Part shown: one piece after another, positions 14,563 through 17,941 of the stretch | Numbering within the stretch: position 1 is the stretch's first letter | How the letters are laid out: the number at the start of each line of letters is the position of its first letter | NCBI GenBank assembly: GCA_038873195.1 | Contig: JAVZEV010000001.1 | Location: 1,330,490 to 1,394,489, forward strand | Reading direction: 5' to 3' | Length of the DNA: 64,000 nt | From: Candidatus Bathyarchaeia archaeon | Lineage (GTDB): Archaea > Thermoproteota > Bathyarchaeia > Bathyarchaeales > Bathycorpusculaceae | Made by a program: the position numbers and the translations under genes | The notes under the pieces: model-generated | The model's input: only the letters and a program-made list of their open reading frames with translations | Databases searched by the model: none | Told to the model about the DNA's origin: nothing

Positions 14563-14624
14563 ACAGCAGCACCAATTTTCTTATACATCCAAAATCCAAA
14601 AGGGCCCGTGGCGCAGCATGGACA

Positions 14625-14640
14625 CCAAACAAGCCAAAAA
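14625..14640 (+). other. Non-canonical D-loop intron of tRNA-Arg
   Basis: These 16 bases interrupt the D loop after position 20a/21. Because an A flanks both ends, the boundary could equally be 14624-14639. Removal restores a ten-base D loop with G15, G18, G19 and A21 in the standard places. D-loop introns are known from crenarchaeal and a few other archaeal tRNAs and are uncommon elsewhere. Confidence 0.75.
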
Positions 14641-14656
14641 GCGCGTCAGCCTTCTA

Positions 14657-14674
14657 AAACTAAACATTGAAGAA
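14657..14674 (+). other. Canonical 37/38 intron of tRNA-Arg
   Basis: An 18-base insertion follows A37 of the anticodon loop. The boundary could shift by one base because A occurs at both junctions. The intron contains GAAGAA, which can pair with the CTTC of the anticodon loop, as expected for a bulge-helix-bulge substrate of the splicing endonuclease. Confidence 0.8.
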
Positions 14675-14814
14675 AGCTGAACGTCCTGGGTTCAAATCCC
14701 AGCGGGCCCGCCACCAATCGTTCGCTGTGCGAACGGAAATTTTAAATTGGTAATGCAATAATAAATGGTAAACACTCTGGTATTTGAGTTATCCTTGTAT
14801 AAGGGGGAAAAGTT

Positions 14815-17383: not shown

Positions 17384-17941
17384 ATGAGCAAAAGAGAAGA
17401 GAAAGAATCTACTCGTTCTGAATTCAAAGTTAAAGGCGCATTAGTAGAGAAAGGAGTTAAAATTTCTGAAAAACAGAGTGTGAATGAACTTTCTTCTCGA
17501 GGGTATGGTGTTAAAGAAAACGATGAGCTTTTGCTGACTTTTTATGAAGCACTTTACCTTTTGGATAAGGGATGGTTAGATGTTGAGACAAAAAAGGGCA
17601 AGAAGATGGATTTCCAACAGCTTCTGCGATGTTATGAGGATTTGGAGGAGAATGCATGGGTTAAGTATTTGACTTACCGAGATTTGCGAAGCCGCGGATA
17701 CACCGTTAGAGAAGGCTTCGGTTTAGGCGTTGACTTTCGTGTTTACGAAAAAGGCGAGTATGGCAAAGACACGGCTAAATACTTAATCTTAAGCATTCAG
17801 GAAGGAAAACCGATTCCGATTGAAGATTTAACGCGTATAATGCTGCAGTGCCAAAGTCTAAAGAAAGAACTAGTTTTAGCCGTGATGAACCGCAGAGGAG
17901 AAATAGTTTACTATTCGGTTTCGCAATTAACCTTAAAATAA
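17384..17941 (+). CDS. endA: tRNA-splicing endonuclease subunit lacking the catalytic His
   Basis: The 185 residues have the EndA fold: an N-terminal domain with ELLLTFYEALYLLDKGWLDV and a catalytic-type C-terminal domain starting YLTYRDLRSRGYTVREGFG. The catalytic tyrosine is present (VDFRVYEKG) and the lysine is present (SLKKELVLAVM), but the histidine normally found in an EHSxYLV-like segment is replaced: the sequence reads KDTAKYLIL. This suggests the structural partner of a heterotetrameric enzyme, with an active subunit elsewhere in the genome. The ATG at 17384 is preceded by GAGG. The gene lies between mtnA and hisS in one probable operon. Confidence 0.85.
   Translation: MSKREEKESTRSEFKVKGALVEKGVKISEKQSVNELSSRGYGVKENDELLLTFYEALYLLDKGWLDVETKKGKKMDFQQLLRCYEDLEENAWVKYLTYRDLRSRGYTVREGFGLGVDFRVYEKGEYGKDTAKYLILSIQEGKPIPIEDLTRIMLQCQSLKKELVLAVMNRRGEIVYYSVSQLTLK

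Follow-up and report, generated by a model that had tools for sequence, protein, structure and literature searches.

In Thermoproteales, tRNA introns at non-canonical positions and more than one intron per tRNA are well documented; such introns have also been found in Thaumarchaeota, Aigarchaeota, Korarchaeota and other archaea (PMC3218864, PMC3293823, PMC8450103, PMC4033280). In the crenarchaeal splicing endonuclease, EndA, a crenarchaea-specific loop (CSL) confers broad substrate range (PMC6379350, PMC12397907). The tRNA-Arg(UCU) gene described here, with its two predicted introns, lies in a 64,000-nucleotide stretch of Bathyarchaeota DNA that was analysed as a whole (the window). Among known systems it comes close to the multi-intron tRNAs of Thermoproteales (Pyrobaculum, Thermofilum), Caldiarchaeum subterraneum and Thaumarchaeota, which likewise combine a short intron outside position 37/38 with a second intron; a two-subunit EndA and differences in intron presence between close relatives are also held in common. 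Placement sets the systems apart, as the introns of C. subterraneum tRNA-Thr(GGU) lie at 24/25 and 45/46, whereas the non-canonical intron of the window gene lies at 20a/21 of a Bathyarchaeota tRNA-Arg(UCU). No report of D-loop introns in Bathyarchaeota, or of an intron at 20a/21 in tRNA-Arg(UCU), was found in the literature searched, outside which stand the surveys of Sugahara 2008 and Marck and Grosjean 2003. Introns of this kind have precedents among archaea but have been little documented in the Bathyarchaeota lineage.

An interrupted tRNA-Arg(UCU) gene

The window belongs to a 1.63-Mb Bathyarchaeota genome in two contigs. The LeuRS encoded beside the tRNA gene has Candidatus Bathyarchaeota as its nearest named relatives, and the order leuS then tRNA-Arg is kept in nine named Bathyarchaeota loci. 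Very probably, the tRNA locus (Table 1) is a functional, likely single-copy tRNA-Arg(UCU) gene with two introns, both of which are spliced. Its 5' half consists of the acceptor strand GGGCCCG (14602-14608), T8 and G9, and the D-stem strand GCGC (14611-14614), followed by a D loop of 26 nt (14615-14640), the 3' D-stem strand GCGC (14641-14644) and G26. The anticodon arm comprises TCAGC (14646-14650), a 25-nt loop (14651-14675) and GCTGA (14676-14680), and leads via the variable region ACGTC to the T arm CTGGG-TTCAAAT-CCCAG (14686-14702), the acceptor strand CGGGCCC (14703-14709), G73 (14710) and an encoded CCA (14711-14713). Deletion of 16 and 18 bases leaves a tRNA of 78 nt, and this double-spliced sequence has a cloverleaf, a UCU anticodon and the consensus positions, as judged by both ARAGORN and a covariance model. 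The identity, loop sizes and spliced length proposed in the first-pass annotation are thereby borne out.

Table 1. Features of the tRNA-Arg(UCU) locus and the neighbouring EndA gene, in window coordinates (↓, cut between intron and exon)
Feature	Position	Strand	Basis
tRNA-Arg(UCU) gene (region of the primary transcript, with encoded CCA)	14602..14713	+	covariance match 81.9 bits, E 3.2e-18; 99% identical same-genus gene
Probable archaeal promoter region, TATA-like CTTATA starting 22 bases before tRNA position 1	14572..14601	+	motif
Exon 1, tRNA positions 1 to 20a	14602..14623	+	alignment to intronless homologues
Predicted D-loop intron, 16 nt, position 20a/21, ACCAAACAAGCCAAAA	14624..14639	+	missing from intronless homologues; helix geometry and covariation
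Exon 2, A21 to A37, anticodon UCU at 14653-14655	14640..14656	+	sequence reading, ARAGORN, covariance match
Predicted canonical 37/38 intron, 18 nt, AAACTAAACATTGAAGAA	14657..14674	+	ARAGORN -i on D-spliced form; missing from homologues
Exon 3, A38 to CCA76	14675..14713	+	sequence reading, covariance match
D-loop motif central helix, exon side, A17 U17a G18 G19	14618..14621	+	pairs with 14634-14637
D-loop motif central helix, intron side, CCAA	14634..14637	+	94.6% of cells paired in this register across 42 genes
37/38 central helix, exon side, C32 U33 U34 C35	14651..14654	+	4/4 pairs with GAAG 14669-14672; present in predicted fold
37/38 central helix, intron side, GAAG, then bulge AA↓A38	14669..14672	+	pairing and predicted fold
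Putative EndA structural (beta-like) subunit	17384..17941	+	PF01974 83.4 bits; alignment to M. jannaschii EndA 1a79

Standard finders miss the gene: ARAGORN called no tRNA in the window, and Rfam RF00005 gave the unspliced sequence only 16.8 bits against a cut-off of 29. Both failures are as expected, because the D loop is interrupted. They would also be compatible with a decayed or disrupted pseudogene, but that reading is highly improbable given that every stem is intact, CCA is encoded, a gene in a same-genus genome is 99% identical across all 112 bases, no second UCU gene was found among the tRNAs recognised even though AGA is the most frequent Arg codon in the long ORFs of the window (273/748), and a covariance model matches the gene at 81.9 bits. 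The probable promoter regions of the two same-genus genes can be compared as well, TTTTCTTATAC being found at the matching place in the relative (L034). A custom covariance model built on six intronless Bathyarchaeota tRNA-Arg(UCU) genes returned a single match in the window, which spans positions 1-78 from end to end and confines the extra bases to the D loop and anticodon loop. With filters off, the same model on a 301-base stretch gave a shorter match (14609-14702, 45.1 bits) with both inserts placed as before. ARAGORN reported tRNA-Arg(tct) for the double-spliced sequence and, when the D insert alone was deleted, recovered an 18-nt anticodon-loop intron unaided. It is permissive, however: in a brute-force deletion series it called 415/893 variants, many wrong D-side deletions among them, and its calls thus support the gene and cannot fix the intron boundary.

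The gene is the only one with anticodon UCU among the tRNAs recognised in the genome, in a census that combined a family search with sequence stretches and may miss strongly disrupted genes. It is probably single-copy, and this together with the prevalence of AGA suggests that it is probably expressed.

Other tRNAs of the same genome (G000) appear to be disrupted. A tRNA-Lys(UUU) gene (L084, G000:C1:192024-192097 and beyond) has about 30 extra T-loop bases, probably a non-canonical intron. A tRNA-Leu(UAA)-like gene on the minus strand (L085, G000:C1:840780-840950) has extra sequence around its D and anticodon arms and is probably interrupted by one or more introns, and a further locus (L086, G000:C2:78900-79060) resembles part of a disrupted tRNA that may carry an intron. 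Neither tRNA-Trp nor tRNA-His turned up among the tRNAs identified; these genes may be intron-disrupted. Brute-force deletion with ARAGORN gave no clean answer for the other disrupted tRNAs.

Distribution of the inserts within the order

A 16-base pattern running from the D stem to the anticodon was searched against 163 genomes of the order. It recovered the tRNA-Arg(UCU) gene in 87 of them, and 84 genes could be separated into exons and inserts. Counted as genes and not as independent events, 14 have neither insert, 12 the 37/38 insert only, 30 the D-loop insert only and 14 both, and a fifth class of 14 combines a 37/38 intron with a different intron near positions 8-10. The D-loop and 37/38 inserts are therefore present or absent independently of each other. 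Among the 44 genes with a D-loop insert, 42 share the 20a/21 type, in which the insert varies from 13 to 28 nt in length while the surrounding D loop stays normal; the other two have long inserts (44-49 nt) of a different build. The closest comparison comes from genus g65, in which one species (G157, gene L260) has both inserts and its sister species (G158, L261) neither: without its two inserts, L260 equals L261 exactly (78/78 nt). The intronless gene nearest to the spliced tRNA of the window (L228) differs from it at 4/78 bases.

In ARAGORN, in the sister comparison and in the covariance model, removal of the insert outside 37/38 restores a tRNA, the behaviour of a non-canonical intron. Independent presence and absence, the exact intron-minus sister and the covarying helices described below support the view that both inserts behave as introns, and a D-loop intron is, by these sequence criteria, common in this order. 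The first-pass statement that introns at two positions, one of them in the D loop, are unusual outside Crenarchaeota accordingly needs softening, as non-canonical and multiple tRNA introns have also been reported in Thaumarchaeota, Aigarchaeota and Korarchaeota (PMC3218864, PMC3293823, PMC8450103).

The same comparison bears on two alternatives. To judge from its relatives, the source is probably a metagenome-assembled genome from a group that has not been cultivated, and inserts created by assembly or binning are conceivable in such material. Yet genomes from many genera, each assembled independently, have both inserts at unchanged positions, the leuS-tRNA arrangement recurs as well, and an artefact is improbable in the extreme. 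It is also very unlikely that the 37/38 insert alone is an intron and that the D-loop insert survives processing to give a mature tRNA with a larger D loop, since the latter is exactly missing from many homologues, the sister gene with identical exons included, and changes in length beside a D loop of normal size.

The survey also recovered several variant forms. Genes L235-L247 and L097, mostly of family f5, carry an intron beside the D stem, near positions 8-10, that is roughly 30-45 nt long; a 37/38 intron is also present and the 20a/21 intron absent. The two long D-loop inserts (L102 and L103, genus g4) have ACGGAT repeated at the 3' end and may form a strong internal helix. U33 is nearly invariant in tRNA anticodon loops; genes L235-L258 and L262 (families f5, f6 and f8) have the loop CCTCTAA, with C33 replacing U33. 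In C33 genes with a 37/38 intron, the base opposite C33 is usually a G, as pairing would require.

Splice motifs at the two junctions

At the 37/38 junction, CUUC (positions 32-35) pairs with intron GAAG (14669-14672), flanked by the bulges U36 A37↓A and AA↓A38. Three-nucleotide bulges cut 2↓1 are the canonical pattern in bulge-helix-bulge (BHB) geometry. The window intron shares with canonical archaeal 37/38 introns the location between positions 37 and 38, the 4-bp CUUC/GAAG central helix and the 3-nt bulge on either side, and differs from them in its very weak outer helix (h'), which amounts to about two A-U pairs. Across 40 genes, the pair at position 33 occurs as both U33-A and C33-G; 35 genes form it, where shuffling gives 27.4 on average, and none of 10000 shuffles, which like those for the D loop take no account of relatedness, reaches the observed number. 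The 37/38 intron can thus be described as carrying a near-canonical BHB.

The motif at the D loop is of a different kind. AUGG in the exon (14618-14621) faces CCAA near the 3' end of the insert, with the two C residues (14634-14635) opposite G18-G19. In the window copy, and likewise in the same-genus relative, 3/4 pairs form, the outer pair being A-A. Over the 42 genes of the 20a/21 type, 94.6% of cells are paired and 33 genes have all four pairs, whereas sliding the register by 1-3 nt leaves at most 61.3% of cells paired and no complete helix. The outer pair is U-A in 19 genes, C-G in 8, A-U in 5, U-G in 5 and mismatched in 5; it is thus formed in 37/42 genes, compared with a mean of 24.6 in shuffles that ignore relatedness, none of which (0/10000) reaches 37. 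Among 26 distinct rows, double changes fill 10 cells versus 2.4 in shuffles, and they are limited to this one pair. G18 and G19 are invariant, and their partners are therefore a poor test of the helix.

A strict hBHBh' motif was not found at the D-loop junction, where no outer intron helix is present, a 3x3 internal loop beside the D stem takes the place of a clean 3' bulge, and the window copy has three of four pairs. The strict form is not required of every non-canonical archaeal tRNA intron, and relaxed forms are known. Covariation, mainly of the one variable pair, supports such a relaxed BHB or bulge-helix-loop, and the D-loop motif is best classed as a relaxed hairpin that is weak in the window copy. 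Of the BHB motifs that were to be modelled at both junctions, the first-pass expectation holds for 37/38 in near-canonical form and gives way at the D loop to this relaxed version. In the predicted minimum-energy fold of the unspliced RNA, UGGC (8-11) pairs with intron GCCA and the D arm is not formed.

The motif also favours a particular boundary. With an A at both 14624 and 14640, excision of 14624-14639 and of 14625-14640 would yield the same product. The helix shared by relatives fits only 14624-14639, that is, position 20a/21; 14625-14640 and 14623-14638 were considered and set aside on this ground. The presence of a D-loop intron, first noticed at 14625-14640, consequently stands, with its most plausible position one base further 5' and the spliced tRNA unchanged.

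The weakness of the motif, with just three pairs in the window copy and no outer intron helix, is what might be said for retention of the D-loop insert. Against retention, the insert's 3' end covaries with the exon in just the register that a splice motif would have. In tRNA, G18-G19 dock with the T loop to form the elbow, and a retained insert would hold these residues paired to CC and block it. If the D-loop insert is instead an intron, as its distribution and pairing argue, intron CC would mask G18-G19 in the precursor, and docking of the D loop and T loop should follow intron removal. Splicing of the D loop probably precedes elbow formation.

Splicing machinery

A candidate for the broad-specificity endonuclease called for in the first-pass annotation is present in this genome, which has two EndA genes; most genomes of the order also have two. 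The predicted alpha subunit (C1:820284) has the catalytic residues Tyr, His and Lys in place, and its loop GFYGKPLGISKPK aligns with the crenarchaea-specific loop of 2cv8 and 3p1z, including the Lys. The second subunit is encoded in the window; its catalytic His is replaced, as in three relatives that have also lost it, while Tyr and Lys are retained. One full Tyr-His-Lys subunit and one without the complete set would make up a two-subunit EndA, comparable to the (alpha-beta)2 enzymes of Aeropyrum pernix (3p1z/3ajv) and Sulfolobus tokodaii (2cv8) in its catalytic set, aligned loop and His-less partner. It differs from the crenarchaeal enzymes in its second subunit, whose nearest sequence matches are the EndA proteins of Methanopyrus kandleri (5x89) and M. 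jannaschii (1a79). The gene for this subunit lies 2.7 kb downstream of tRNA-Arg, a likely substrate, a proximity that is probably coincidence. RtcB is also encoded in the genome (594.6 bits).

Since two EndA types and RtcB are encoded, an (alpha-beta)2-type pathway is available, and we infer that it acts on the tRNA-Arg precursor. A two-subunit EndA, with the CSL-like alpha and the window-encoded structural subunit, would cut the pre-tRNA at both junctions, and RtcB would join the exons. The enzyme would recognise a nearly canonical BHB with a weak outer helix at 37/38 and, at 20a/21, a relaxed motif next to the D stem composed of AUGG/CCAA and of A20 C20a↓A versus AA↓A21. Cleavage, the order of events and single-copy status are, like the action of the pathway, what we infer.

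Implications

The D-loop intron conceals a probably essential tRNA from common gene finders, with the result that Bathyarchaeota genomes can seem to be without an AGA-reading tRNA. A broader proposal, which we put forward tentatively and consider rather unlikely, is that Bathyarchaeota EndA routinely removes a D-loop intron marked by a minimal hairpin with the invariant G18-G19 in place of a BHB, and that the intron blocks the elbow until excised. If true, the D-loop intron would be a built-in check on tRNA folding and processing order. Within the order, genes with no intron, one of the two, both or the third type form a natural series on exons that hardly vary, so that the gain and loss of introns can be tested directly; the series also offers minimal substrates for defining the requirements of a broad-specificity EndA.
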